Source: Hydnum rufescens UP504
Taxonomy: Eukaryota; Basidiomycota; Agaricomycetes; Cantharellales; Hydnaceae
Length of the DNA stretch: 64,000 bases
Direction: 5' to 3'
Assembly (NCBI GenBank): GCA_014904985.1
Contig: MU128921.1
Span: 203,944-267,943 of the forward strand
Shown here one piece after another: positions 1 through 57,055 of this stretch (its first letter is position 1; each line of letters begins with the position of its first letter). Below the pieces are notes generated by a model that saw only the letters and a program-made list of their open reading frames with translations, was not told the origin of the DNA and did not search any database. The translations under genes were made by a program, and so were the position numbers.

Positions 1-2753
1 CGGAATTCAGGTGTAGTACAATTATCGTGTAAGGTACCACGAAGAAGGGAGAGTAAACAAACCCCGGAACAGGCATCATAATCCGGCTGCGTCCGGCGCC
101 AATTAGAGCCAATCCCAGACCGTTTACAGCCATATTCCTAAGGGATCATCTTCCCACGTGTCGTAACTCCTTCGAACACGTTGCGAGCGAAGATATAATG
201 AAATCAATACCATGACCCTGGTGAGAAAGCTGCACATCGCTACCATTCGTGAACATATCCAAAATCAGAGCCATTACTGATCGTGGACTGATTCATTCTG
301 TGGTGCCAGAATCGGCTCTACTACTTCGATGACTATGTATCATGCTGGTCGCGACTGGTAGTCTCGTAACCAGACCCTCTTATCAGAGGCTCTGGTTACG
401 AGACTATGAGCGAATAAAAACGAATAATAGCCTCGCAACCTCTGCCAACTAAAATCCCCTATCTGAGGATGTTGTATTGTTGCATCTCAGGCTCAGGGTC
501 TGTTCTTCGCGGGTGGGACTCTGAAGGCGAAGGAGACAGTTGATTAATAACTACCAGCGCTAATATGAGATATTATAAAGCAATTATCACCATTCGGAAT
601 TCCAGAATACGAACCTTGTCGAGATCATGCAATTCTGCGCGAAGCAATGCTCACCAATCCGGACGGTACGCCTTCGTAAGAGGGCATTGTGTGATGAAAT
701 ACCACTACGCTTACACCACTATATTCTTGACACCACACTGGGCATCGTCCTATCGTAACCATCACCAAATTATTCGCCTGTGTATAAGCGAGGTGAGAAT
801 TTAGGATTCATTGAGGACATAGGAATCGGGGGTGCACAGTATATCCATAATATGGGATAGTGGCTTCCCCCGAAAAGCCGAAATCTAGCACGATGCGTGG
901 ACGAAGCCACCGAAGGAACTGGTAGAAAATGAAATAGGGGTTTGAAATAATGGTTCGAAACTATCTGTCTATTCTGTGGAATACGGGTAATCAACGGAGC
1001 ATACCAATCATCATGAGTTACCTGAAGTGCCTGATGCATCATGGCGGTCCGGCAGATATACACATATTACGGAGAAGGCCTTGGGTCTGACATGATATCA
1101 TTTGAACTAGAAGCTGCGGCTAAGCAGGTTGGATACGAATCACCAAGGATGACTTCGTCGATATGTATCCTTGATAATCGAGCCCTTGAGCTCCTAAAAA
1201 ATAAAGAGAAGGCCCTACCCGTCGTTAGAGATTTTCCCCAAAATGACAATGAGGCAACCAAGAAGGAGCAATGGGACTTGGGATAAACCATGTAGTGGTA
1301 TGCACTTCTCAGCATGAAATGTGCGTTCTTGTTACTTGGAAACAGGAAGGGCGTTTCCACAAGAGATCCTAATTTCCGTGAAAAATAATGGAACTATATT
1401 GACTAAAATGACATCCTGCAGCGAAATGGTGTAGTGCCGATCTTGAGCGAGCCTACGACAAGTCGGAATAAAAGGAAAACCTAACCTTAGGGCTGAATTC
1501 AAGCTAAAAATCACAACCTATATTCGGCAGTCCGGTGTAAAGGATGTAAGTGGCGGCGAGTGTGGATAGTATTACGTAAGAGATGTGGTTACTGTCACGG
1601 GTCACGCTCTTGCGTCCTCGCCTCAATCGTCGGTCCTCACCAATTGGTGGGCTGTTTCGGCCCTAACTGGATCGTTTCCGAGAAAATATTTGCTGAAGAG
1701 TCGCGGCCAGGTCTTTAGTGACATTTTTCTATTGTAACATATCTACGCCATCGCTGCTGATGATCTTGAAAATCGCTGAAAAATATGCTTAATCAAGAAA
1801 GGATCGATTTGTTTTATCCAATATCTGCCATCCATTTCAGTACCGCTGCATCGCCACTTCGTGTTTCAACAATTGCCACTCGTGTAAGTCGTGTTTCGTT
1901 CCTCCATTCGCCTCCTCCTGGAACCATATTAAATCGCATACTTGACCAGGATACGCGTAAAGGTATCCAAAATTATCTCAATGCTTCAGCCGAAACCTTG
2001 CCAGGCAACCAAAAATACCTGAAGTTCATTGGTGATGCTAGACTAGTTAGAAGACTTCGGCAAAGACCGTGGGCGTGAAACCGCTCCGCACTATTCATAC
2101 TTTTAAGCTACCATCATGTTTAGCTCTCGAAAAGCAGCGTCACAACATAATAAGGAAGGAAATCCACGAGATACCGTCAAGACGTTTGTTTCCGCACGTA
2201 TTAATATGTGACATCCTGGGCCCTTCAGTTCCTGATCCTGTTCAATAGGAAGCTCCAGCTGCGAGATATGTTTTTGACAGCCCTGAACGTGATGCGCCCT
2301 GGGCTGAATTGTGTAGGCCGGGCCCGGGGGTGGGAAGCGGTGCATACAGGTTCGTATCCCATTGGCCTGGTATCTCGCAGGCGGCAATGACGACGTCCCA
2401 CATATATATTTCGTTCTCACCTGTAGTTTCCCATACAGGTGGCTTTGCAATCCAAAGCCCTATTCTCAACAATGCAGGTACACTCATAGCACCATGATAT
2501 TTTTTGATATTTCTGTGTCCCATCCCTTACCCCAATGTATTATTACAGAACTTGGGGTTCTATTGTGCATTACCCTTCGACCCGAAACACACCGAAATCG
2601 AGTGCACAATGATCCCGAAATGAGATTATCAGGGCACTCGAGATGTGGATTATCGATACATGGAGGTGATTGTGAGATATAACAAGAAAAATCGATATGC
2701 AACGCCATGCCCATGCAAAGCAGCAATATTGTGCTGCAAGACTAATGAAGCCA
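1..2753. other. No supportable gene (2.75 kb)
   Basis: Open frames on both strands are short, overlap each other and carry no domain I recognise, and no exon chain with GT-AG introns could be built. A strong hairpin at 359-406 is listed separately. The stretch may be intergenic DNA plus decayed coding or transposon sequence; nothing firmer can be said. Confidence 0.5.
359..406. repeat. 48-bp near-perfect palindrome (hairpin)
   Basis: Positions 359-374 (TAGTCTCGTAACCAGA) are the exact reverse complement of 391-406. After one C:C mismatch, five more bases pair (376-380 with 385-389), leaving a TATC loop. It lies in a region with no gene, so it may be a small foldback element, a dyad binding site or a terminator-like structure. 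No function can be assigned. Confidence 0.75.
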
Positions 2754-4323
2754 TCATTCAGTAACGACATCAACTGCAACGCTCTGCGTAGAGGCTGCCA
2801 ATATGCCCATATCATCGATCACACCATCTCTGACCAGCCCATCAAAAGCATCGAGTGGCAGTCCTTTCTCCATATTAATGCGCTGGCGCTCGGCAATCTT
2901 ACGCCTGTCCTCGGCAAATATGAGGTCCAGAGTGGCAAGAACCAACTCCTGCTTAGCGCGCTTAATCTCGGCGGAAAGTCGAGCTCGGTCGTCTGCAGCC
3001 TTTTTGCCCACTGCAATGACCTCTGCGATCTGCAAACAAAAAGAAATCGGCAAGACTCAACAATGAGCACAAAGAGATGATTGCTCTTGCCTCCGCATCA
3101 AGTTTAGATGTCAAGGTCGGCCTTCGTTTTGCCGCTGGGATGTCTGACAACGATCCCACTTTCTGTCCATCCTCGGTTCCATGGGCGTCGCTCACAGAAT
3201 TATAATCAGATCCTTGCTTATGCTCTTCTGCGATTTCATCTCCTTTTGATGTCGAAGGGGACATTGATGATTTGGTCAATGAGGGATGAGATTCTTGATT
3301 TTTGGCCGCTGGGGCTTGGGAATGCGGTGACTGGTGTTGTACGGAGGGTGCGAGACGCGGGAGCACTTCTTTGACCTGCGGTCTCGAGTCGCCAGGGGGT
3401 GGACTCGCAATGGGAGGCGAAGACAACTCGCGTTTTTTTGCTTGATTATTGTTGTTTGTCTTGATATGGTCTTCTAATTCTCCAGGACTTAAAGGGAGGG
3501 GCTCCGTAGGCTGGGCCGGAGTAAGTGAACGCTGACGTCGCGAAGAATGGCGAGCGGATGGCTCCCCACGAGATTCAGGATGGTCTTCACGATGTGGCGA
3601 CCGAGATCGGGATTTGCGTGGGGGAGACACCCGACGCCGTGGACTATGCGCCCAGTCACGAGGGCGAGGGGAACGTAGATCTAAGTACTGCCTCTTCAGA
3701 ACATCTACGCATAAAATGTGGGAGTTTAGGCTCTACCAGGTACATAGCGGTCTGGTGAACGTCGTCGTGGAGGAGTCGGCGGCCGGTTGTAACGCCCATT
3801 CGATCGCCATTCTCGATGACCTACAAATTAGTAACTCCACATTGAGAGGACATGAATATTATTCGAATTCACCTGGAGAGTTTGAACGTTCACGCCACCG
3901 ACGGTGATTCTCTGGCTCACCGTACCGAGTCGGGGGTCTATCTCGCTCATAGTCATAACGAGGATATTCAGGGCCACGTTCTCGTCTCCGTCGCTCCATA
4001 TCCAATTCTCGGTCTGGTTCAGGAGGCCACCGACCCGGGGAAGGAACGTAACGATCGTAGCGGTCCCATTCTCGTTCTCTTGTTCGATCCCTATCGGAAG
4101 GGCGGAGGTACGTGTCAGGTTCTCGGCCCCTAGAATATGGGGGTGACCGTGGTCTGTAACGCGAGGCCCCGTTAGCTCTCTCTCGTGATCTACTCCGGTT
4201 CAGACGCGGAGAGGGAAGTCTCCGATGTGGAACGCTAGGAGAAGACGGCCTGTGGCCTCGATGCGGAGTATTTATCGAGGAGGGGACTCCTGGAGGAGTA
4301 GGACGGGGCGGTAACCCACTCAT
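2754..4323 (-). CDS. Arginine/serine-rich (RS-like) protein
   Basis: The model has four exons: 4323-3873, 3820-3744, 3687-3091 and 3029-2754, giving about 466 residues. The N-terminal two thirds are dominated by R/S/P/D/E with many RS, RSRSP, RDR and RER runs, as in SR-type splicing proteins and RS-rich nuclear factors. No RRM is visible. The C-terminal ~90 residues form a charged, probably helical segment. The first two introns are GT-AG (intron 1 has TTACTAAT before TTGTAG). The third is best explained as a GC-AG intron, because the frame runs on exactly from SKLDAE into IAEVIAVGKK. The likely role is nuclear, RNA processing or chromatin; partner and mechanism are unknown. The low-complexity composition prevents a family name. 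Confidence 0.7.
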
Positions 4324-42445: not shown

Positions 42446-45400
42446 ATGAAGCGGTCCCTCAAGCCCGGGAAGACTGCCAAGGGCGTCTCGTTGGTGATCC
42501 TCCACGTTCTTCACACCCTCCTCGACGCAATCCCTGTTCCGGGTGCTAAGGCCGGCATTGACATTCTCCTTGATGTGGTCGAAGGCATCGACGTCAGTAT
42601 CATATTCCTCTCGCTTTGGAACTATCCACCCTCATCGCTCCCCGTGTCCTTCCAGGAGACTTCCCAGAACTCTTCGACGCTGCGAGAACTAGAAAATCAT
42701 ATTCGATTCCTAACAGATCTTCTGGAGCCCCTCACGAAAATGGATCGAAACAATCTCTCATCTGGCCTTGAGGACGATGTACTGAGGTTGAGCAGGTGAT
42801 TGCCCACGCTTTTATTGATGATGTGAATGTGCCACTAATGCACGTGTCCTCGAAATTAGAGATTTGGAGAGTATTTCATCCAATGTGAAGGGAAAGTCTT
42901 CCACAGGGGCTGTACATCGCTTCTTGGAACGAAAGAAAGACGAACGGGATCTCCTCACTTTCGCCCAAAATGTCAAGGCGGCCCTTGACCGTTTTCAGGT
43001 GTGTTTGTATCCAATGTTCCATCCTCCGTTTTCTGACTGGCATCGACGATCCAGGTTAGCCAAACGCTCCGTCAAGAGCAAGAATTACTTTTCGAAAGTA
43101 AGAATCTCTCCGTTTTGGACTGTTCATTCGCTGAGATTCGGCTCCACAGAACGATCCGCAGCTGTCATGTCTCTCCGTCGGGTTGACTCTGCGGCCTATG
43201 ACTCTGGCCGTGAGGACGCCCCTCGTTATGCCTCGAAGGCACCCGTGTTGCAATATTGGCAGAAATCATGTTATGGTTCGAGAACATGGAAGTCGGGACC
43301 CCCCTGTCTACTGGCTTATGGGATTGGCCGGGATCGGCAAGTCGACGATTGCGAAAACGGTGGCCGAACGAACGAACAAGAATAGTATGCTGGGGGGGAG
43401 TTTCTTCTTTTCCCGGAGCGAAGCACCTTTGCGCGATCCACACATGGTCTTCCCAACGCTTGCATTCCAACTGGCACAATCGGATAAAGAGTTCAAAAAC
43501 ATGATCGGGGAGGCCATACGACAAGACCCGACGTTGGGCCATAAGGAGCCATTGGCGCAATTTGAGGGATTGATCTTGAAGCCCCTTGCGAAGCTCGACT
43601 CGCACCGGCGGACGACACTTATCGTTCTCGACGCACTTGATGAGTGTGAAGAACGGGGTGCTACCACGATTTTACAACTACTGCTTGCTCACGCTTCACA
43701 ATTACCCTTCCTTCGGATCTTAATCACCAGTCGTCCGGAGCCCCATATCTCTTCCGTGTTCGATCAGGCCAGGAACCTCGCAAAGAGAATTCTTCACGAT
43801 ATTGAAGCTTCCGTGATTGAGGGAGACCTCCGTCTTTACATTCGGTCTGAATTAATGAAGATTCCGAAGAACCTCAGTCTTCGTATGCCTGCGGATTGGG
43901 CGACCGAAGAGGAGATAGGCACACTCGTTGAGAAATCGGGGAAATTATTCATTTATGCGGCCACATCCATCCGATTTATTGGCGACAATCGTGTTCGAGA
44001 TCCTCGTAGACATCTACGCCTTATACTGGATGGACAGCTCAGCAAGGGATCGAAAGCTATGCCATACACACAGCTTGACAACCTATACATGGGGGTCCTT
44101 CAGAACTCCCTCTCGGATGCCAATAGTGAAGTGATCATAGAACGCTTTCAAACGGTTGTGGGTAGTATCGTGTTGCTCCGCCAACCTCTTTCGCTTCGTT
44201 CGTTTGCACAGTTTGTTCAGTATGAACTGGATGGTGTTGACACCGTTCTCCATCACCTTCATTCTGTCATCATCCCTCCTTCCACTCTGGACGAGGCTCC
44301 GCGCAGGTATCATCCTTCATTTCTCGACTTCATTACCGATCCTTCACGATGCTCTATCCCCGAGTTCGTCATTTTTTCCGTACCAGATCAGGAGCTACGA
44401 CATGCCTTGCAATGCTTCGAGCTGATGGCAACATTCTTGAAGCAGGACGTGGCAGGGGTCTCTGATTTCTTGCTGTTGAACAGTGAAGTGGAAGGATTGG
44501 AAGAGAAAGTGAGATATGCACTGCCAGCGGAGGTGCAGTATGCGTGCAAGTATTGGGCCTCACATCTGTCGAGTGTGGAATTGGGGGAGAAGCGAATGGT
44601 GGAAGTACTGGAGCGATTTTCGATGGGTCGATTTTGATGTGGATGGAAGCGATGAGCCTAATCGGGAGTCTCTCTCGTGCGGCGACCTCGATGGAAGAGG
44701 CGCACCGGTGGGCGGTGAGTGTATTCACTGTTGGAGGTCGGATCAACAATTGATTGGAGAGTGATCTCGATGACAGATGGATTCGAAGTGTGAGGCAACT
44801 CTGATTACTATGTTGGCCGATGGACGGCGGTTCATCCTTGCTCACTGTGAGCTGATACGGGAGAGTGCACTGCAGGTGTATCATTCTGCATTGGCATTCA
44901 CACCATATGAGACTGTGCTGTACAAGACATATTCAAAAGATGTGGAGAGTTGTATTGAGGTGCTGCAGGGTGTGGATGCCCAATGGCCACAGAGGTTGAG
45001 CACATTGCTCTGCCCTACTGGGGTTACCTCAGTTGCATTTTCACCAGATGGTCTATGGCTTGCATCAGGCCTGGAGGATTGTACCCTGCACTTGTGGGAT
45101 GTCATGTCAGGCATGCACATATCAACTCTTCAAGGCCATGCTGATGTGGTTACCTCAGTTGCATTTTCACCTGATGGGAAATGGCTTTCCTCTGGCTCCT
45201 TGGATAAAACCCTATGCTTGTGGGATGCTGCATCTGGTGCCCACATTGCAACTCTTAAAGGCCATGCTTTGGGGGTTACCTCAATTGCATTTTCCCCTGA
45301 TGGTCCACAGCTTGCCTCTGGCTCCAAGGATAAAACCATATGCTTGTGGGATGCTGCATCTGGTGCCCACATTGCAACCCTTTGAGGCCATTCCAATGGG

Positions 45401-46630
45401 GTTACCTCAGTTGCATTTTCACCTGATGGTCTGTGGCTTGCCTCTGGCTCCTGGGATCACACCCTATGCTTATGGGATGCTGTGTCTGGTGCCCACATTA
45501 CAACTCTTCATGGCCATTCTGATATTGTTACCTCAGTTGCATTTTCACCCAATGGTTCATGGCTTGCCTCTGGCTCCTGGGATGAGACCCTGTGCTTGTG
45601 GGATGCTGTGTCTGATGCCCACATTGCAACTCTTCAAGGCCATGCTAATGAGGTTACCTCAGTTGCATTTTCACCTGATGGTAAATGGCTTGCCTCTGGC
45701 TCCTTGTATGAGACCCTATGCTTGTGGGATGCTGTGTCTGGTGCCCACATTGCAACTCTTCAAGGCCATGACTGAATGAGGTTACCTCATTGGTTGCATT
45801 TTCACCTGAGTCTATGCTTTCTGTTCTTGATAACTATGCTTGTGATGCTGTGTCTGTCCATTGCACTTTTCAAGGCATGCTGATGGTACTGTGCATTCAC
45901 CTGATGGTATGCTTCTGGCTGCTGGGATGAAACCCTATGCTTGTGGGATGCTGTGTCTGGTGCCCACATTGCAACTCTTCAAGGCCATTCTGGTGCTGTT
46001 ACCTCAGTTGCATTTTCACCCAATGGTTTATGGCTAGCCTCTGGCTCTGAGGATCAAACCATATGCTTGTGGGATGCTGTATCTGGTGCCCACATTGCAA
46101 CTCTTCAAGGCCATTCTAGAGTGGTGTCCTCAGTTGCATTTTCCCCTGACAGTTTATGGCTTGTGTCAACCTCATGGGGACGTGCTTTATACTTGTGGGA
46201 TGTCACATTAGGCACATTCACAACTCTTCATGTTGATACAGAGAGTCAGGCAGTTGCCTTTTCCTCAGATGGTCACATTCTCATCTCCAAAACTCCTGAA
46301 AAACAAACCTTTGCATGGGATTTGACATCACAGCCCCCTCAATTACTCTCTGGCTCAATTCCTGAGGTGGCCTTCTCTCCCACTATAAGGCTCAGTTCAC
46401 TTGAGGGTAGTGCAGGTGGCTGGATCTGGGCACTGGACTCCCATGGCAATCATGTTGCACATATCTGCTACATCCCTCCACATTATTGTCTGAGTACTAC
46501 AACCCAGGAATCAAGTCTATCTCATCAATTCCAACTTGCAGTTGGATGTGGGGATGGTCATGTTATAATTGTAGATTTTCAAGATCATCCATTTTTTCAG
46601 AGGCTTGAACATGGAGTTACACCTGCATAG
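42446..46630 (+). pseudogene. NLR (STAND) protein: helical N-domain, NACHT, WD40 repeats; frames disrupted
   Basis: Exons 42446-42592, 42656-42795, 42860-42998, 43055-43097, 43162-44714 and 44777-46630. Residues 1 to about 160 form an all-helical domain (VPGAKAGIDILLDVVEGID, LENHIRFLTDLLEPLTKM, FAQNVKAALDRFQ) like the MLKL/HeLo-type bundles of fungal cell-death NLRs. NACHT follows: Walker A GLAGIGKSTIAK, Walker B TLIVLDALDEC, sensor ILITSRPEPH. Then come WD40 repeats. Such proteins oligomerise on ligand recognition and trigger regulated cell death in incompatibility or defence. Single-base breaks lie near 43,229, 43,302 (C run) and 44,623 (T run). A TGA at 45,383 interrupts the WD40 part, and 45,776-45,935 is a collapsed repeat. 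The single-base breaks may be assembly error; the stop and collapse look like true decay. Confidence 0.85.
45023..46160 (+). repeat. Tandem 126-nt WD40-encoding repeats, nearly identical
   Basis: Units begin GTTACCTCAGTTGCATTTTC near 45,023, 45,149, 45,275, 45,401, 45,527, 45,653 and 45,779, then 45,999 and 46,125. Each encodes one 42-residue blade (VTSVAFSPDG..LASGS.D.TLCLWDAVSGAHIATLQGH). Differences between units cluster at a few positions around L/K-W, the residues after GS, and those after GH. These are the sites that vary in fungal NLR sensors with high internal repeat identity. A degraded unit lies at 45,776-45,935. Codons look CpG-stripped (TTG for TCG, GATGG for GACGG). Confidence 0.85.
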
Positions 46631-47109
46631 ATGGAATTACATTATTTAGAATGTCTTTTGTGGCTTCTTGGGCATTGTCAGAGTTTGTCCATTTCCCAGG
46701 TAACTCTGGTTTTGGTTCCAATCTGTTTCATTTTCCCTTCATTTCCTTTGCTTCCAGTTTCCACATGCTTACCCCTGGTCCCATTCCTGTTCCTTCTACT
46801 TTCCCATCCCCTGTCCATTCCTGCCTCCTGCCCACTTCCCCTCCTGTGCCTGCCCCCCTGTGGGGACTCAATGAACAGCTGCTGGAAAAGATGCACCTCA
46901 GCAACTTGCCAGGAACACTTGAAGGATGGCAAGACATGGCACCTTGGTCAGCCACTTAGAGGGGCCTTAATAGGTATGTCAAACTGTGTCAAATCAAAAG
47001 CCTAGCAGGCATCAGAATCCTTTGATATCAAATAATTTCAGGAGGGTGACCTTAGGTCAATCCATAAGTCTGCCCTTGGGGATTTTGATATCAAACTCAC
47101 ACAGGCTGA
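46631..47109. other. CpG-poor spacer after the NLR
   Basis: A pyrimidine-rich segment (46,730-46,860) encodes no recognisable protein. It is probably decayed transposon sequence. Confidence 0.4.
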
Positions 47110-47911: not shown

Positions 47912-48865
47912 TTAATCTTCACTATCTATGAGGGTGCTATCTATGAGTGCAATAAAACCAAGGTCCTCTACTTCACAATCCTCCTCTAGTTCTCCATCAT
48001 CATCATCATCAGATGATACCACACTACTCAACCCATCATCCTTATGCCCCCTTGATGATATGCCCAAAACTTGACTGAGATGGTGATGTTCTAGAGGTAT
48101 TGGAGGGTGGATATCATCCCAGCATGGGGTAGTTGACATAGAATTAATGAGAGAAAGATCTTTTCTCCAAGTCACCAACCAGTCATACAGTTGATGGAGT
48201 TGAACAAGGGCAAAGAATGAGACATCATCATTTTGTGTGAAGTTGACCAGTCTCTCCACTGCAGTATACTCTTTGGAGAACCATGTCCAAAGATTACTGT
48301 GTTCCACCTTGCACTGTTCCAACTCCTCTTTACAGTTAATGATCTCCTGTGCAGTGCATATCCCTTGCTTGATTGAAGCATCTGCCAACCATGGAGGAAG
48401 GACACCATCAGGGAAGTCAGTGACATCCCCCCTTGTATCTTCCCATATATCCTGATCAACATCCAGTCTGTACAACCCTTCCTTCTAAAGCATTCATTGG
48501 TGGAATATAAGCATCCCTTGAGATACTTTTTGATCTCCTTTGATATTCAACCATTTCCACCAATGTTGTGTTGTACTTCTTCATAGTGCCCTCAATCCCA
48601 GAGGAGCAGTGCTTCACAGCTTTTTCTACATGTGCCTTCATCTTCTGGTTCAGTATGCAAGTGGAATGGGTGCAATCCAGAGTTGCAAGCTCAAATTTTT
48701 GCTCCCTTAACTTTCAGAGGAGTTGTTCCCTAAGAACATGAATGTTGAGCTGAAGAGTAATCCATTTATCCTTCTTCAGCTTTGACAACTTCTGGGCAGC
48801 AACCTGATCCTGGAGTTTCAGCTCCTTGACCTTCTTTTGCAAACCAGTCAGCCATAATTGTATAT
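47912..48865 (-). pseudogene. KDZ transposase, C-terminal part (separated by insertion)
   Basis: The minus strand reads (across small frame changes) a coiled-coil helical stretch with LREQKFELATLD, KAHVEKAVKHCSSGIEGTMK then LYRLDVDQDIWEDTRGDV, PPWLADASIKQGICTAQEI, EEL..C..EHSNLWTWFSKEYTAVERLV and an acidic end. This is the C-terminal region typical of Kyakuja-Dileera-Zisupton transposases. The rest of the gene is at 53,591-54,690, beyond the 4.7-kb insertion. A stop lies between two helices near 48,716. Non-functional. Confidence 0.75.
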
Positions 48866-48873
48866 CTAGTTAG
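48864..48873. repeat. 10-bp direct repeat, left copy (probable target-site duplication)
   Basis: ATCTAGTTAG here is repeated exactly at 53,581-53,590. The two copies bracket the 4.7-kb insertion, and KDZ coding homology resumes on each side of them. Ten bases is an uncommon duplication length for a DNA transposon. Confidence 0.7.
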
Positions 48874-49094
48874 GCCCTTTTGCCTTGCTTTTATTTAGTC
48901 TAAGAGTGGGTTTTTAGGTGGGGGCCCCTGGGGCCCACTGGGTGATTTCATGGCATGAGACAAGGGGCCCCTGGGGGCCCCTCACCTTAGACTGCTAGTG
49001 GGACTTAGAGATTCTCAGACTTGCAGGACAGTGGGCCATATGGGCCTATTGGGGATAATGTGTTCCACTATATGGTACATACCTGGTCAGCAGG

Positions 49095-49126
49095 AGGTTG
49101 AGGTTGAGGTTGAGGTTGAGATTGAG
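49095..49126. repeat. Hexamer microsatellite
   Basis: Four tandem AGGTTG units followed by a variant AGATTG, near the left end of the insertion. Confidence 0.8.
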
Positions 49127-49289
49127 CACAGGGAGAGGGAGGAGCACTTGGTGGGGGGGCAGGTCACCAGATTCATTCAGCAGTCATTGCATTATTGACT
49201 TGTTTATTTATTTATTTAGAAATTCTATTAACAAAAAAAAAATACCACACCCTTAGTGGGCGTCCATAGGAATCAGAAAAAGAAACTAC

Positions 49290-51745
49290 TTAGTAGCACC
49301 ATACACCCACAGGCAGGTGTGTGGTACTGTCCATAGAAATCAAAAAAAAGAACTACTCAGCAGGGGTGTGTACTGGTCCACAGAAATAAAAATAAAAATA
49401 AAATAAAAAAGAACTATTTAGTAGCACACCCACTGTAGCAGGTGTGGTACCAGGGGCGTGGCTTGGCGGTTCACCTTTGGGTGGGTCATCTCGTTCATGG
49501 GTTTTGTTCCGGGATTTCATTTGGGGTGTGGGTTGCTGTTCTCGTGTATTTGTTCGGCAGCATTGCGGGTCTTCATCAAGGGTTCAAAAGAATACCTATG
49601 ATAATAAGTAATAAGTTAGTAAAAAAAGAAAAACCCCACAAAAGGAGCAGCACACACTGCTCCTTTTGCGCGGTCGTACTTATATATGGGGAATACTAAT
49701 CTTGAAAATTATCACACCTGCCAAAGCGGGTGTGGGGTTCATCTGGGACTTTGGTGGCCTCATTGTGTGCAGGTTTCATTTATATGTTGTGGGAAATCGA
49801 GGTCGGGGGGTATGGGTGGCTGTGTGGTCCCATGTTTTGCCCTGGGCCTGATCTGTGCATTCGTTGGGTCGGATATCATGCAGTAAATGTACCTAGAATA
49901 ATGATATGTTAGTAAAGAAAAAAAAACGAAGGCAATGCCAAAAGAGCAGCCAGGGCTGCTCTTTTGGTGTTGCAGTACAGCACATAATCAAAAAAAAACT
50001 CACCTACTAGTACCACACACCCACTTCGGTGGGTGTATGGTATGCGATTTCATCGATCATCATTTCGGGGGGCGGGCACTAGTGGCTTGGGTGGCTGTGC
50101 ATTGAATGTTGCACTGGGGGCTCGTCTGTGTCTTCGTCGGCTTGTTGGGTGGGTTTTCATGGAGGGAATGTACCTAGAAGAACGAATGATAATACATTAG
50201 TAAAACAAAAAAGAAAGCAGAGGTGCCAAAAGAGCAGCTTCTGCTGCTCCTTTGGCACTGGTGGGATTAGACATACCTGATGTCACCACACACCCGCTGA
50301 AGCAGGTGTGTGGCATATCTGATTTGCCGTCGTATTATAGTTCTCGAGGCTTGGGGGTTGGGGTCTGATTGGCTGCATGCTCCGTATTTCACCACAGGCC
50401 TTCTCTGGCCATTCATCAGATGGGGTTTCGCGGAGAGAGAGAGGAGCTAGAGTAAGGAGTATGTTAGTAAAAAAAAAAGAATTCAAGCAACACCAAAAGA
50501 GCAGCTGTTGCTGCTCTTTTGGCGTTGTCGTACACCCTGCAATAAAAAAGACTCACCTAATATTGCCACACACCCGCTGAAGCGGGTGTGTGGCGCCGTA
50601 TTTGTTTTGTCATTGTAGAAGGCATAGATAATCAAGAGTCAGGGGTCTGGGTGGCTGTGCACTGCCGTGTTTCGCCCTGGGCCTGATCTGTGCATTGGTC
50701 GGGTCAGGTATTGCACAGTGGAGGTACCTAGAATAACAATACATTAGTAAACAAAAAAAAAATCCAAGACAACACCGAAAGAGCAGCCGGGGCTGCTCTT
50801 TTGGCGTTGTGGTACACTGCATAGTGAGAAAACTCACATGATATTGCCACACACCCGCCGAAGCGGGTGTGTGGCACCATATTTGAGGCGTTGTCATGTA
50901 TTTTGCAGATAGTTGAGGGTGTTCGGGTCTTGGGTGGCTGCGCGCTCCCGTATTTCATGGTGGGCGTTGTCTGTGCATTGTTCGGGTCGGGTTTTGTGGA
51001 GGGAGAAAGCCTAGAACAATGAATACGTTAGTTAAAATAAAATAACAGAAGCAACGCCAAAAGAGCAGCTGGGGCTGCTCTTTTGGCATTGTGGTACACC
51101 CTGTAACGAAAAAAAAACATACCTGATATTGCCACACACCTGCCAAAGCAGGTGTGTGGCACCGTATTTGTTTCATCCTCGTATACATTGCGGAAAATCG
51201 AGGGTTGGGGGGTATGGGTGGCTGCGCAGTCCCATGTCTCATCCTGGACCTGGCCTGTGCATCAATTGGGCCGGATATTGCACAGTGAATGTACCTAGGA
51301 TAAGAATATGTTAGTAAGGGAAAAAAAAGTGAAGGCAATGCCAAAAAAGCAGCCGGGGCTGCTCTTTTGGTGTTGTTGTACACCCCGTAATGAAGAAAAC
51401 ACACCTAATATTGCCACACACCTGCTTTGGCGGGTGTGTGGCACTGTATTTGTTTCATCATATGTTGTGGATATACGACCGTTGGGGTCTTGAGTGGCTG
51501 TGCCTGCCACTGTATTTCGCCCAGGGTCCTGTCGGTGCATTCTTCGGGCGGGGTTTCACAGGGTGAGAAGGGACCTAGAATAATGCAGATGTTAGTAAAA
51601 AATAATTCAAGCAATGCCAAAAGAGCAGCTAGTGCTGCTCTTTTGGCATTGCGGTACACCCCATAAAAAGAAAACTCACCTAATAGTGCCACACACCTGC
51701 CAGGGTGGGTGTGTGGCACCATTGTGCTTGCTTCGGGCTCAATGT
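49290..51745 (-). repeat. Tandem exon-intron-like units with two hairpins each (leftward)
   Basis: Unit length is about 272-284 bp. Read on the minus strand, each has an exon of ~170-173 nt ending in hairpin B (CCACACACC..GGTGTGTGG) just before a donor (GTGAGT or GTATGT). An intron of ~110 nt follows, with hairpin A (GCCAAAAGAGCAGC..GCTGCTCTTTTGGC), a T run, a TACTAAC/TACTAAT branch site and a CTAG acceptor. Acceptors are near 49,890, 50,175, 50,447, 50,728, 51,011, 51,295 and 51,571; donors near 50,003, 50,276, 50,556, 50,837, 51,121, 51,402 and 51,678. Exon lengths of 170, 171, 171 and 173 do not keep a reading frame, so a protein is unlikely. Arms vary between units but remain complementary. 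Confidence 0.8.
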
Positions 51746-51756
51746 TGAGTAAGATC

Positions 51757-52361
51757 CTACTCAATGCCAGGACTTTCCGGGCTTGAAAGAGTGCCCAATT
51801 AGGGGCAGTACCAACTCATATGGATAGATAATAAATACCTAGATAAAAAATAGATAATAAATACTAAATATCTGTCTAAAACAGGTGGGGGAATAAATGA
51901 TAGTCTGTTGGATTGCACTAAGGCACCATGTGCAAAGAGGAATTGGGCAACTTCCATGCATTATAATTGGCCAAAATTCGAGTATCTTGGTGGGATGTAT
52001 ATATATTTTATGTTGATGAAACGAATTGGACGATCATGCCAATTTTCAGTTTCTTGTGCCTTCAATTTCCTGAATAGGAAATTGAAGGCATGAGAAACTG
52101 AAAATTGGTGTGATCGTCCAATTTGTTTCATCAACATAAAATATATATACATCCCACCAAGATACTTGAATTTTGGCCAATTATAATGCATGGAAGTCAC
52201 CCAATTCCTCTTTGCACATGGTGCCTTAGTGCAATCCAACAGACTATCATTTATTCCTCCACCTGTTTTAGACAGATATTTAGTATTTATTATCTATCCA
52301 TATGAGTTGGTACTGCCCCTAATTGGGTGCTCTTTCGAGCCTGGAAAGTCCTGGCATTGAG
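51757..52361. repeat. ~600-bp near-perfect palindrome (foldback element)
   Basis: The left arm (51,757 to about 52,072) is repeated as reverse complement to 52,361 with few differences. For example CTCAATGCCAGGACTTTCC opens the left arm and GGAAAGTCCTGGCATTGAG closes the right. The centre is at about 52,075. It contains no coding capacity beyond a mirrored short frame found on both strands. It separates the oppositely oriented halves of the array. Confidence 0.85.
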
Positions 52362-52429
52362 TTGTTTGTTTTGATGATTACTAAGCTACCTCATTTGTAT
52401 ATAGGACAACCAACAGGATCCCGCTGAAC

Positions 52430-53400
52430 TAGAACAGGACCACACACCCGCCATGGTGGGTGCATGGTCCTATAGGTGAGTTCCCTCCTACTATATACAG
52501 CCATGCAAAAAGGGCAGCAAATGCTGCCCTTTTTGCACTCCTTTAACATTTTAACTAACATACATATTATTTCCATTCTAGGTTTAAGGTTGTTGCAAAT
52601 AACGACAATACAAAACGAAATCAACGCGGGCCGAAATCCATCCAAGACCCCGCATACATGCGCAGCCCCCAAACCCACACGACGACAGATAAAACACAGC
52701 ACCACACACCCACTGCGGCGGGTGTGTGGTGCTATCTGGTGAGTTCCATCCCCCAATAGATACAGCCATGCAAGAAGGGCAGCTGTTGCTGCCCTTTTGT
52801 GCTCTTTGACACTTGAAACTAACATACTTTATGTGCCAAAGGGCGATGTGTCAAATGGCAATGCGTCAAACGAGCACGTGATGGACAAGAACGCGCCCAG
52901 CGAGTGGCCCTGGGAACCACACCCACCATGGCGGGTGTGCCCTATATACAGTGAGCCCCCGCCCCCATGACCCCACATATCAAAACCTGGCCAACAATAC
53001 ACAGGGTATATAAAGTACCACACACCTGCCACTGCAGGTGTGTGGTACTACAGGGTGAGTTTTTTTTTAGTAATCCTGGGGTGCAAGAAGAGCAGCATAA
53101 GCTGCTCTTCTTGCAATGCTTTATTGTCTAACTAATGTATTGTTTTTTTCCCTAGGTCTTGGACTCAAATCCGAATGAACCCCCGACCCCAAACCCACCA
53201 AACGAACACCTGGCGAATGAAGATCCGGTGAGCCGAACCCTGTGACCCACCCGATGACCCGAACCCACCAAGCTGAACCCTGCGACCCCAAACCCACCAA
53301 ACCAAGCCAAACCCCCCCACATGAAGGTAAGGTTTTTTTTTCTTTGGCTACGATCACACAAGAAGAGCAGCCTCTGGCTGTTCTTCTTGGGTGCATGGGT
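52430..53400 (+). repeat. Exon-intron-like hairpin units (rightward)
   Basis: The units have the same design as in the left array but read on the plus strand. At 52,441-52,470 hairpin B is followed by GGTGAGT (52,475), hairpin A (GCAAAAAGGGCAGC..GCTGCCCTTTTTGC), TTAACTAACAT and CATTCTAG (to about 52,581). A second unit starts at 52,700 (hairpin B, GTGAGT, hairpin A at 52,770, AACTAAC). A third runs 53,016-53,157 (hairpin B, GTGAGT, hairpin A, GTCTAACTAAT, CCCTAG). A degenerate one follows at about 53,327-53,400. Hairpin sequences differ from the left array, but pairing is kept. Confidence 0.75.
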
Positions 53401-53580
53401 GAGCCCCACTGGGCGAGCCTATCATTGTATATAATAATAACATTAGTAATAATGATAATAATAATAATAAATAAATAATCCATGGCTAGGGCCAGGGCCC
53501 CAGGGGCCCAGGGCCCTGGGCTGCTTGAGGGGCTGCTTGGGGGCCCCTTGATTGTATTGCAGGGGCCCCCTGGTGTAAAC

Positions 53581-53590
53581 ATCTAGTTAG
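53581..53590. repeat. 10-bp direct repeat, right copy
   Basis: ATCTAGTTAG, identical to 48,864-48,873; KDZ homology restarts directly to its right. Confidence 0.7.
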
Positions 53591-54690
53591 ATATGATAAA
53601 TGCAATGCTCATCATATCTAATATGATATGGAAAAGTGGCTGACCAGGCTGTTCTTTTGTATGTTGTTTTCAAGGCACACTACTGAGGGCTTTGTTGATT
53701 TAACCTTTTCCTGCCATTCCATAAACACAGCTTCACTTGCACTGTCCTCTCCAACCATATCATTGCCCTCCTTTATTAAGTCTTGCAAGTTCTCCCACTG
53801 GGCATCTAATGTGGACTGTAGGGAAAGGATATGATCAATGGCATGGGCACCCTGGGTCTGGGACTGCCAGGATATTGGTTGACTGTGATAAAGCTGCTGC
53901 TCCTTGAATTGTTGGAGAAGATACTTGATAGACTGAAGACCAAGTTTTTTCTGGGCTTCATCCAAATGACATTGGGCATGATCAGTGTGATCCCTCAGCC
54001 ACTTTCCAAAACCCTCTCATTTCCCCTCATCAATGTGTTCCACTTGTAAGTCCAGAAGGAATAGTCAATGGTGATAGCCTGTCACCCAAAGCCCATGGAT
54101 AAGTCACTGTAACTCACTCCAAAACTGCTCACACCCTTCTCCATCTGAAAGACCCCAGATCTCATTCTTTTGAGGGTGGTACCATAGTTGACAGGTCCAC
54201 TGGTGCCCATATGCATGGAAAATTGATGCACCCCACTCCAAATGCCCCAACCACTCTGGCAGAAAGTCCCATTTCTTGAGTGATTGGTCTATTTGGCAGC
54301 CAATATCAAATAAGGCACCAATTCTCCAATGATGGGGCAGATGCTTGATAAGGGCATCAAGAAGGGCAAACACATAAAATTGTTTCTCCCCAGCAGTCCA
54401 CATGTTGGCCAAAAATATGGGAATACCATGTTGGCAGAGCATGGCAGGGATGCCAGTGTCACTGAAGTATTGAGTCAATGCCTTTATTTGATCTCCATTG
54501 GCAGCAGTGAAAGATTCACCACAGGCACAGTATGTGGAATTTGGCATGTTTAGATTCCTTTCAACTTTATCTCCTTCCTCTGCTTGCAGATCTTCACTTT
54601 CCACTGCCTCATTGGCTTTGCACTTCTGTCCAGCTCTTGGTTCTCCTCTTCCAGGTCAGATGCCTTGGACTTTTTGCTCCCATGCCTCCA
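53591..54690 (-). pseudogene. KDZ (Kyakuja-Dileera-Zisupton) transposase, central part
   Basis: The minus strand encodes YCACGESFTAANGDQIKALT, FSDTGIPAMLCQHGIPIFLA, NMWTAGEKQFYVFALLDALI, LPHHWRIGALFDIGCQID, GASIFHAYGHQWTCQLWYHP and GLSDGEGCEQFWSELQ, the catalytic core of KDZ transposases of Agaricomycetes. Next, VTGYHH(stop)LFLLDLQVEHIDEGK(stop)EGFGKWL contains two TGA codons (54,065-54,067 and 54,017-54,019) where family members have Arg, i.e. CGA to TGA. The C-terminal half continues to 53,618, then after the insertion at 48,865. The N-terminal zinc-binding part is missing upstream, where unrelated repeats begin. KDZ elements are often expanded together with TET/JBP genes in these fungi; none is in this window. 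Confidence 0.88.
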
Positions 54691-54974: not shown

Positions 54975-55715
54975 ACTGCTCATTTTTCCCTTGGTACCAT
55001 TTGATGCACCTTTTTAACAGCTTTCAGGGCATGGTACTTGCAAACAAATACAATAAGAATTGGCTTCAAAAATTGAGAAATACTCCTTCAGAGTATGAAT
55101 CTTGGGAAGATAATGGTACAGGGACTGCAATTTTGATCTTTTCATCATGTGTTTGGTACCATTTGATAGGTATGATTTGTATCTTTCTGGGTGCTGTTGT
55201 TCTGAGTCAATCTGATCAAAACTGACAGAAATTTGAAGGATACTCCTTTAGAGTAGTGCAGCCCCTATCTGGATCATGTGACAGATCCGTGAGTCCAAAA
55301 TTGGAACTAGGCCTGGTCTGCATCATTACATAATCACAATCTGTCACCCTTAAGGCAGTAGGATGGCTTGGAAGAACAAGCAAGCCATACAGTCTTGAAG
55401 AAGAATGGCAAGTTGAATTGCCTTGTCCATAGAAAATGGACTTGATGTAGGGCATAAACTGCCCCTTTTTGATGAGGACTGTTGAAGTCCAATGGACAGT
55501 CAATAAATTGACTGGTGTTCATGGTAAAGGAATGAGGCGATATTGTGAATTGGAAAGGGGTAGGAATCCAATAGATTTCTTGAATAAATGAATGATGATG
55601 GAATTAAATGGGTGGGGTGACAAGTAATTGATTTGTTTGTAAGGAAAATAGGCCTTGGATGAGGTTTTAATGGTGTTGGGATTCATCCCTCCAACACCAT
55701 AATAGGCATTTCCAG
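54975..55715. repeat. Large inverted repeat, left arm
   Basis: It corresponds as reverse complement to 56,326-57,055 over ~0.73 kb. The match runs from TGCTCATTTTTCCCTTGGTACC (only its start shown) near 54,977 to the CCCTCCAACACCAT block at 55,685-55,700. The left arm is almost free of CpG, while the right arm still has many. Confidence 0.8.
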
Positions 55716-55767
55716 TACCATTCAAGGTGGATTTTTAATAGCTTTCTGGTTTCATTGGTTCCAAGCA

Positions 55768-56250
55768 GATTGGATGTGAACTGATGGAGAAATTCATAAA
55801 ATACTGATGGGTGTTGATTCTGATAGTAATATCATTCTGTAGAGTGCAGTTTTGATCTGTTCTTCACATTGCTGGTACCATTAGATGTGTATTTTTAACA
55901 TCTTTCTAGGTGTGATGATTTAAAGAGGATTGGATGTGAACTGATGGAGAAATTCATAAAATACTGATGGGTGTTGATTCTGATAGTAATATCATTCTGT
56001 AGAGTGCAGTTTTGATCTGTTCTTCACATTGCTGGTACCATTAGATGTGTATTTTTAACATCTTTCTAGGTGTGATGGTTCCAAGAGGATTGGATGTGAA
56101 CTGATGGAGAAATTCATTTATTACTGGAAATTTCAGATTTTGATAGTAAAATTGGTCTGGAGAGTGCAGTTTTGGTCTGTTCAGCTTGTGTTTGGTACCA
56201 TTAGAAAGGTGTGAATCGTAGCTCTCCAAGCATTATATGGGCGTACATTT
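55768..56250. repeat. Three tandem ~160-bp repeats
   Basis: GATTGGATGTGAACTGATGG occurs at 55,768, 55,928 and 56,088, exactly 160 bp apart. The first two units are nearly identical over their whole length; the third diverges after about 40 bp. CpG is absent. The array lies in the spacer of the large inverted repeat. Confidence 0.85.
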
Positions 56251-56325
56251 CTGATCAAAACTGACAGAGTTATAGAATGAATTCAGTTTCCACATGTAGC
56301 TGTAATTAATTTTGTAATTGGTCAT

Positions 56326-57055
56326 GTGATCGTTGTTGGAGGGATAAATCCCTACACCATAGAATCCTCATCCAAGGACTATTTTCCCTACAAACAAATC
56401 AATTACATGTCACCCTGCTCATTTAATTCTATTGTCATTTGTTTATTCAAGAAACAATTGGATTCCTACCCCCTTCAAATTCACAATATTGCCTCATTCC
56501 TTTACCATGAACACCAGTCAATTTATTGACTATCTGTCAGACTTCAACAGTCCTCATCAAAAAGGGGCAGTTTATGCTCTACATCAAGTCCATTTTTATG
56601 GACAAGGCAATTCAACTTGCCATTCTTCTTCAAGACTGTATGGCTTGCTTGTTCTTCCAAGCCATCCTACTGCCTTAAGGGTGATGGATTGTGATTATGT
56701 AACAACATGGACTGGGCCTAGTTCTGATTCTGGACTCACGGATCTGTCACATGATCCAGATAGGGGCTGCACTACTCTAAAGGAGTATTTTTCGAATTCC
56801 TCTGTCAGTTGTGATCGGATCGACTCGAAACAACCACTCCCAGAACGATAAGAATCGTACCTATCAAATGGTACCAAACACACGACAAACAGATCAAAAC
56901 TGCGGTCCCTGTAACAATATCTTTCCATGATTCATACTCTGAAGGAGTATTTCTTGAGTTTTGAAGCCAATTCTTATTGGATTTGTTCACAAGTACCACA
57001 CCCTGAAAGCTGTTAAAAATGCACATCGAAAGGTACCAAGGGAAAAATGAGCAGA
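56326..57055. repeat. Large inverted repeat, right arm
   Basis: Reverse-complement partner of 54,975-55,715. It contains CpGs (for example in 56,810-56,910) at positions where the left arm has TG or CA. Confidence 0.8.

Follow-up and report, generated by a model that had tools for sequence, protein, structure and literature searches.

Introduction

Several described systems come close to the locus reported here. Tetris is a nonautonomous foldback transposon with ~220-bp tandem repeats in its inverted arms and an 8-9-bp target-site duplication (TSD), and in Galileo tandem repeats in the arms add transposase binding sites (both from parts of PMC4079207). Zisupton elements are reported to have 8-bp duplications and terminal inverted repeats, and Kyakuja families of Laccaria have 7-bp duplications and CA..TG ends with no inverted repeats (from parts of PMC12730594). 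Introners are transposon-derived introns, the splice sites of which are carried by the element or recruited at the insertion site (from parts of PMC9860276). In Cryptococcus, stalled spliceosomes can trigger production of small interfering RNAs through the spliceosome-coupled SCANR pathway, a process linked to transposon silencing (from parts of PMC6643885). Here we analyse a 64,000-nucleotide stretch of the mushroom Hydnum rufescens UP504 (assembly GCA_014904985.1, contig MU128921.1, positions 203,944 to 267,943), hereafter the window, to which coordinates refer unless another locus is named. It contains a 4,812-bp DNA transposon whose interior consists of two divergent arrays of exon-intron-like units, each unit with two hairpins.

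Results

Array units form the interior of a transposon

The original prediction, made from the letters of the window, described a tandem array of ~280-bp units, each with a hairpin B, a splice donor, a hairpin A, a branch site and an acceptor. These repeated units are directly visible in the sequence. In the direction of the transcript each runs from an A/C-rich exon body to the exonic hairpin B (of the type CCACACACCCGC-NNNN-GCGGGTGTGTGG), a donor usually 10-14 nt past the hairpin B core, the intronic hairpin A (of the type GCCAAAAGAGCAGC-NNNN-GCTGCTCTTTTGGC), a TACTAAC-type branch site within T-rich sequence and finally CTAG. Hairpin A sits between donor and branch site in the units examined. 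However, the units form two divergent arrays flanking a palindrome rather than a single array, and the feature reaches to transposon ends at 48840 and 53651. The left array holds seven intact units and one degenerate unit on the minus strand (49.6-51.7 kb), and the right array two intact and at least one degenerate unit on the plus strand (52.4-53.4 kb). Left introns, all between 49893 and 51679, are 103-112 nt long with GTGAGT, GTATGT or GTGTGT donors and CTAG acceptors, and the exons between them measure 170, 172, 173, 171, 170 and 170 nt. The intact right introns are 106 and 101 nt long (Table 1). Where they match, the left and right arrays are only 74-82% complementary. Predicted folding is strong both in 201 nt around left unit 1 (z = -6.8) and at 52680-52850 (z = -6.0).

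The borders of the element are sharp. Similarity searches with the flanks break at fixed points, at 53651/53652 on the right and near 48840 on the left. Moreover, all six fetched loci that contain both flanks but no interior (L043-L048) have a left flank that stops at 48839 and a right flank that starts at 53652. At these empty loci the flanks overlap by 8 bp, which in the window read TTCTTTTG; one of them (L046) also has a second junction with 7 shared bases. The ends of the element are CAAACCAGTCAGCCA and, inverted, CAGCCTGGTCAGCCA. Five further copies (L049-L053) were compared, four of which are long; together with the window copy, all pairs of these long copies are 92.7-96.0% identical. 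The TSD is an exact 8 bp in L051 and L052, agrees at 7 of 8 positions in L049 and is absent in L050 and L053. All five carry GGTTAGT at the donor place of the degenerate eighth left unit. L053 (C43:252200-255350) has two left ends facing each other, without target duplication, and is probably a recombinant element. A degenerate pattern of the terminus occurs at 377 sites in the genome (reversed control, 0). The ~280-bp unit had been proposed as an introner-like mobile unit, or one like a miniature inverted-repeat transposable element; this was not supported, as the mobile entity is the complete 4.8-kb element, which has termini of its own and an 8-bp TSD. A Helitron was also considered, and is ruled out by the 8-bp TSD and the CA..TG ends. 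Helitrons make no TSD and have 5'-TC..CTRR-3' ends with a 3' hairpin.

The units number in the thousands. The exact core of hairpin B has 5,641 matches in the genome (reversed control, 0), that of hairpin A 5,299 (reversed control, 1), and a pattern combining hairpin A with the branch site 528 (reversed control, 0). From the core counts, ~5,500 units of ~280 bp would amount to ~1.5 Mb, roughly 2.4% of the 63.2-Mb genome. Genome counts obtained by similarity (flanks, palindrome arm, hAT, KDZ and a 162-bp repeat) scored the best candidates only and are thus lower bounds.

Splice signals in diverged units

Conservation of splice sites among the five close copies is uninformative, as 236 transitions and only 10 transversions account for their 246 variable exon columns. 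The analysis was therefore moved to diverged units. Units were detected from the two hairpins alone, with neither donor nor branch site required, which yielded 129 units. A GTRAGT/GTRTGT donor lies between hairpins B and A in 76% of them, against 1.6% in the reverse complement and 3.9% in the reversed sequence. Likewise, CTAAY followed by YTAG is found downstream of hairpin A in 67%, against 0% in both controls. At an identity cut of 80%, 42 mutually diverged units remained, whose exon bodies average 44% identity. Compared with the expectation from dinucleotide shuffling, these retain GTRNGT in 34 units (6.1 expected), NACTAAY in 34 (2.9) and TTCTAG in 20 (0.8). Because loci L001-L038 had been fetched via patterns containing branch motifs, the test was repeated without the seed units, leaving 106 of the 129 units and 37 diverged ones. 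Enrichment persisted in these unselected units (GTRNGT 30 vs 5.1; NACTAAY 27 vs 2.3; TTCTAG 15 vs 0.6), while the antisense strand gave 1, 0 and 0 respectively. Donor, branch site and acceptor have outlasted much of the exon bodies, and this is the strongest evidence obtained for splicing of the RNA and for selection on splicing.

Paired changes in the hairpins

Given that close copies differ mostly by transitions, CpG decay was taken as the null for changes in the stems. The hairpin cores had served to detect units, so conservation of their sequence is no evidence, and the search pattern dictates pairs 4-9 of stem B. A tree was built from 96 units with the hairpins left out, and same-branch paired changes were scored by parsimony against a null weighted by branch length (R-scape was not the method here). 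These 96 are the units with donor and branch site (99 before three were dropped) and were used for the oriented-hairpin, loop and first tree analyses; as only 4-nt loops were admitted, the stem A tables cover 48 of 50 diverged units and the first tree test 93 of the 96. That first run gave 60 changes against 27.6 for stem B and 45 against 15.4 for stem A. These totals are inflated by register shifts, and ties at the root had also been broken alphabetically; we rely on the later, smaller figures. In 15 of the 96 stem B rows the A-T pair beside the core is lacking, mostly through paired loss of one CA/TG repeat. The tree test was rerun with a single register and random tie-breaking at the root.

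In the rerun, stem A without its CpG-prone pairs and pair 12 showed 12 same-branch paired changes against a null mean of 1.0 (maximum 5 in 1000), 11 of which replace one Watson-Crick pair by another. The CpG-prone pairs 14-16 of stem A gave 21-22 changes against ~9.3 (maximum 17). For pairs 11-15 of stem B, in the 81 of 96 units that share one register, 13 changes were found, a number that 0-1 of 1000 null runs attained (null 5.4). In stem A, pair 12 is A-T in 24 and C-G in 21 of the 48 diverged units and had no compensated change in the first tree run; it is one deep split, possibly a paired change in the length of an A/T run.

The CpG step of stem B (CCCGC/GCGGG) behaved differently. Among 152 hairpins the compensated states are as frequent as expected (TG/CA 18 vs 16.6; CA/TG 11 vs 10.0), as is the unpaired CA/CA (12 vs 11.8). 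CG/CG (33 vs 25.6) and TG/TG (19 vs 14.1) are in excess, with CG/TG and TG/CG falling short; we read the CG/CG excess as a matter of copy age. Over both arms of the 96 oriented units TG and CA occur 52 times each, and on the tree the step has 9 same-branch changes against ~5.6, a value reached by 60-86 of 1000 null runs. Covariation at this step was rejected, since the compensated states are as frequent as under independent decay and the tree changes are not outstanding. The original prediction had held that arm sequences change between units yet stay paired, and had asked for a covariation test. By the tree test this stands for stem A and for the outer pairs of stem B, but the CCCGC/CCCAC/CCTGC changes cited in its support fit CpG decay. 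Thus the comparisons indicate that pairing in stem A and outer stem B is maintained, as both selection on structure and copying between arms predict.

Strand-specific marks and coding potential

Read in sense, the loops of hairpin A contain 107 A against 22 T among 198 letters, and 11 of 50 diverged units have the GNRA tetraloop GAAA and none the reverse type. In hairpin B, 23 of 50 diverged units have a UNCG-type loop or a CpG-decayed form of one, against 12 for the reverse (p = 0.09); over all 96 units, which are not independent, UNCG-type loops number 49 against 19. The loops of hairpin B occur both ways relative to the splice signals, for example as TTCG and CGAA in the left array of the window, which suggests occasional inversion of the hairpin at the DNA level. 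The asymmetry between G-U and A-C mismatches was tried as a test of selection on RNA, and was positive for hairpin A alone and negative for hairpin B. When CpG-prone pairs are set aside, 10 G-U stand against 1 A-C in hairpin A, four of the ten being a C-to-T change beside the GAAA loop. Exon bodies are 64% A+C and fold at -19 kcal/mol in sense against -31 in antisense; introns are T-rich. Overall, the case for function at the RNA level appears good for the introns and fair for hairpin A, and is open for hairpin B. A search of 48800-54000 against Rfam returned 40 matches at E<=5, none of which reached the gathering score, the strongest being the palindrome scored as microRNA precursors.

The original prediction had expected no protein but a structured spliced RNA, if any product at all; the absence of a protein and the structured spliced RNA both agree with the data. 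The 170-173 nt exons of the window break the frame, and exon lengths in 88 neighbouring pairs are spread evenly over the three frames (29/32/27); in that set donors were chosen automatically and are sometimes a GT inside hairpin B, which leaves the window exon lengths unaffected. The longest open runs in exon bodies, at 37.3 codons, hardly differ from the 36.8 of shuffled sequence, and each of the three frames has stops (66, 78 and 57); all three are fairly open owing to base composition. Coding exons were rejected on these frames, run lengths and stops, and the product is probably not a protein. A structured spliced RNA would accord with the retained splice signals and with the paired changes in the stems. 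One public gene model, BS47DRAFT_1358571 (P0002; Hydnum rufescens UP504 hypothetical protein, 208 aa), does match the element. As we read it, the first junction of the model falls on the splice sites of left unit 1 and the second takes a GT inside hairpin B, for which reason we take the model to be ab initio. The sole other protein match of an array open reading frame (ORF) is one JGI metagenome protein.

The central palindrome and unit orientation

Between the arrays lies a near-perfect palindrome, whose arms are complementary at 96% over 222 nt and at 95% over 80 nt, and an arm of which has at least 78 matches in the genome. At the loci examined, 16 palindromes have units within 4 kb; of the 111 units there, 106 are directed away from the palindrome and 5 towards it. 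One C114 unit was entered both ways in this count, so that one of the five inward units is also counted as outward, and palindrome centres were rounded to 50 bp. The nearest hairpin A lies 396-492 bp from the palindrome centre in 24 of the 28 flanks with units.

In 13 copies the arms of one palindrome are 89-99% alike. The two long arms are closer to each other than to any other copy's arm in 8 of the 13, and in six diverged families (L004, L012, L035, L040, L041, L065) a copy's own arms are 89-99% alike against 74-84% for the best other copy. The other five, close copies around the window, show the reverse, with other copies nearer than the own second arm. It thus appears that in the long run the two arms of a copy become homogenised, and the six diverged families suggest arm-to-arm conversion in a fungal transposon. 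The original prediction had offered frequent inverted copying as an alternative to selection on structure. Homogenisation in diverged families implies that such copying does occur and could give paired changes without selection at the RNA level, although it is not seen in the five close copies.

Transposon family and insertion site

The element is inserted in a KDZ transposase gene, and ORFs on both sides of it match uninterrupted copies; the window thus holds nested transposons, the element lying inside a multicopy KDZ transposase gene (47912-48484 and 53652-54655). Two further KDZ copies (L064, L065) both begin sharply with CAGGCTGGTCAGCCA, their shared homology starting at CAGGCTGGTCAGCCATATAG; this terminus agrees with the terminus CAGCCTGGTCAGCCA of the element at 14 of 15 letters, a comparison that concerns one end of two KDZ copies. 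L065 has a PF18758 match at C56:79581-80381 (E 1.0e-51) and L064 has similar reading frames. At L065 (C56:75000-82200) an array element with the terminus CAACTCAGTCAGCCA sits directly at a break in the KDZ copy, and array hairpins are also found on the other side of that copy, so that the two kinds of element are mutually nested.

KDZ matches in the genome number at least 154. A scan of three element ORFs gave no KDZ domain and no Pfam family above the cut-off, and the element is for this reason called nonautonomous. hAT was dropped in favour of KDZ as the mobilising family after a search of hAT loci for the terminus and the comparisons with the interrupted gene and the KDZ terminus; no matching terminus was found within ~1.5 kb of 10 of the 90 hAT matches, whose element ends may lie further out. 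A nonautonomous KDZ element of the Zisupton type is the probable identity.

Neighbouring features

A 162-bp repeat at 46940-47101, which starts with CACCTTGGTCAGCCA, is found among the matches listed at 14 other places in the genome, 13 of them at 99-100% identity and one at 95%. It is probably a miniature element of recent origin, whose terminus is of the same kind. At 54985-57038 lie direct and inverted repeats whose ends resemble TGTTGGAGGGATAAATCCC, and an insertion in the array copy L052 (about 2413-3787) has weak similarity (62%) to them. At 43135-46630 lies a fungal STAND-type gene, in which a reading frame for a NACHT/nephrocystin-type nucleoside triphosphatase precedes WD40 repeats (126-bp tandem repeats, 79% matches). 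Its best named protein matches, together with the public gene model, point to Hydnum rufescens (Cantharellales) or a close neighbour as the source of the genome.

Table 1. Coordinates of the transposon, its parts and its insertion site in the window.
Feature	Position	Strand	Signals or basis
Whole transposon	48840..53651		4,812 bp; flank breaks, empty sites
Left target-site duplication TTCTTTTG	48832..48839		Empty sites L043-L048
Left terminus CAAACCAGTCAGCCA	48840..48854	+	Start of homology to other copies
Degenerate eighth left unit	49598..49736	-	Hairpins B and A, branch site and CATAG acceptor present; donor altered
Intron, left unit 7	49893..50003	-	GTGAGT, TACTAAC, TTCTAG; hairpin B directly 5' of it in the transcript; hairpin A within it
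Intron, left unit 6	50174..50276	-	GTATGT, TACTAAT, TTCTAG
Intron, left unit 5	50447..50556	-	GTGAGT, TACTAAC, CTCTAG
Intron, left unit 4	50728..50837	-	GTGAGT, TACTAAT, TTCTAG
Intron, left unit 3	51011..51122	-	GTATGT, AACTAAC, TTCTAG
Intron, left unit 2	51295..51404	-	GTGTGT, TACTAAC, TCCTAG
Intron, left unit 1 (closest to palindrome)	51575..51679	-	GTGAGT, TACTAAC, TTCTAG
Central palindrome, near-perfect, 604 bp; candidate bidirectional promoter	51759..52362		Inverted arms; core kept in diverged families
Intron, right unit 1	52476..52581	+	GTGAGT, AACTAAC, TTCTAG
Right unit 2	52739..52830	+	Donor, hairpin A and TAAC motif; no acceptor found; counterpart in L049, L051, L052
Intron, right unit 3	53055..53155	+	GTGAGT, AACTAAT, CCCTAG
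Right terminus CAGCCTGGTCAGCCA (minus-strand reading; inverted end)	53637..53651	-	Comparison with other copies
Right target-site duplication TTCTTTTG	53652..53659		Empty sites
Part of interrupted KDZ transposase gene (insertion site, outside element)	47912..48484	-	tblastn of ORF to L044-L048
KDZ transposase core of interrupted gene (insertion site)	54104..54655	-	PF18758, E 4.5e-39

Discussion

Taken together, these data make it likely that the element is a nonautonomous, foldback-like transposon of the KDZ type carrying two divergent genes for spliced, tandem-hairpin noncoding RNAs. The central palindrome would serve as a bidirectional promoter, from which two transcripts would run outward to the element ends, the direction in which the signals are seen to point. 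The spliceosome would then remove the introns, as the retained signals suggest, leaving an RNA with a hairpin every ~170 nt. Units would multiply by tandem duplication. The element itself moves as one piece, duplicating 8 bp of its target, and is presumably mobilised by a KDZ transposase made elsewhere, to which the shared terminus points.

A number of observations weigh against this interpretation. The CpG step of stem B lacks clear compensation, the UNCG-type loops of hairpin B are just mildly sense-biased in diverged units, and hairpin B has no excess of G-U (10 G-U vs 12 A-C). The structure of exon bodies does not fall below what their composition predicts (z -0.33), and donors in predicted folds are no more unpaired than other bases (0.35 vs 0.37). 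The homogenised palindrome arms mean that inverted copying could make the paired changes in the absence of RNA selection. As to the family, the KDZ element was located by one end only, the 8-bp TSD and the CA..TG ends would suit hAT as well, and the genome does have hAT transposases (at least 90 matches to their dimerisation domain).

The most serious rival explanation is a foldback element that acts at the DNA level, in which the hairpins are repeated transposase binding sites and the splice signals, carried along in a captured piece of a gene, are passengers. The dyad symmetry of the thousands of exact hairpin cores (5,641 and 5,299) and the lack of a G-U bias in stem B would suit such an element, as would the inverted tandem-repeat arms around a middle part and the 8-bp TSD, which recall Tetris and Galileo as covered in parts of PMC4079207. 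However, passengers would not be expected to persist as the donor, branch site and acceptor do in units whose exon bodies are ~44% identical, nor does the explanation account for the place of hairpin A between donor and branch site, its strand-biased loops or the 106 of 111 units that point outward; we regard it as unlikely. Slightly less likely again is that the element belongs to hAT rather than KDZ, which would affect the family name only and is compatible with the RNA part of our interpretation. The TSD, the ends and the abundance of hAT dimerisation domains just mentioned would all permit it, but none of the ten hAT loci searched had a matching terminus within ~1.5 kb, and two KDZ copies share the 15-letter start bar one letter.

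It is improbable that the array is simply a source of silencing, with hairpins and palindrome as by-products of inverted duplication and transcripts that feed host small RNAs to no benefit of the element. Argonaute domain matches in the genome, the homogenised palindrome arms of diverged families and the 236 transitions against 10 transversions, which suggest methylated and silenced copies, are in keeping with this. Nevertheless, stems of ~14-21 bp are short for Dicer products, and a passive target has no need of the splice signals that are kept. Least credible of all is a protein-coding repeat gene made of many small exons, for which there is little room. The public gene model with its first junction at the splice sites of left unit 1, and the fairly open exon-body frames that base composition produces, would speak for it; against it are exon lengths in all frames, open runs like those of shuffled sequence, stops in every frame, the lack of a Pfam family above the cut-off in the three ORFs scanned and the ab initio look of the model. 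Annotators should be warned that a public hypothetical protein is a gene model placed over such an element.

If the element is indeed a KDZ-type transposon with spliced RNA genes, a transposon in which no protein gene was found keeps strong introns and hairpins across large divergence, which implies that its RNA matters to it. This is unexpected for cut-and-paste elements. Of nonautonomous members of that kind, only the ends are thought to be necessary. Hairpin A might shorten the distance from donor to branch site, and strong introns might give clean splicing and with it escape from spliceosome-coupled RNA interference (RNAi), for which the genome has Argonaute (Piwi) domain matches; the exonic hairpins might offer a protein-binding or decoy surface on the spliced RNA. 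We consider this combined role, in which strong introns shortened by hairpins evade RNAi and exonic hairpins bind or decoy a protein, rather doubtful. Only a shade less tentative is the broader proposal of a new class of transposon-borne gene, a tandem-hairpin spliced RNA present in thousands of units and acting in trans on spliceosome-coupled silencing or on the KDZ transposase. Were it true, a trans-acting hairpin RNA would explain why strong introns and hairpins are kept in elements that lack a transposase. In any case, thousands of related introns offer a natural test system for how intron strength and hairpins at splice sites bear on splicing and RNAi in a mushroom.

Transposons with exon-intron arrays were not described among the best-ranked open-access titles and abstract openings; subscription journals and Repbase lay outside that scope, and a description may exist. 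The consulted parts of the KDZ paper (PMC12730594) make no mention of such arrays. With the Zisupton type of KDZ element, as covered in those same parts, the element shares the 8-bp TSD and CA..TG ends with inverted repeats, and one end of two KDZ copies in the same genome has a near-identical terminus; it differs in that no transposase was found inside and the interior consists of two divergent exon-intron arrays. SCANR may be relevant in that Argonaute domains are present in this genome, but it is a pathway and not an element, and its action on array RNA would be speculative. Introners resemble the element in the transposon-linked spread of spliceosomal introns, and some families have terminal inverted repeats and TSDs (in parts of PMC9860276). 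However, the splice sites here are internal and exons lie between the introns, so that the element is not an introner: it is not itself spliced out, and its exons stay in place. Tetris and Galileo are alike in having a middle part flanked by inverted arms that consist of tandem repeats, and Tetris also in being nonautonomous with an 8-9-bp TSD, as far as the relevant parts of PMC4079207 go. In the Hydnum element, by contrast, the arrays are only 74-82% alike where they match, each repeat has splice signals and two hairpins, and a near-perfect palindrome takes up the middle.

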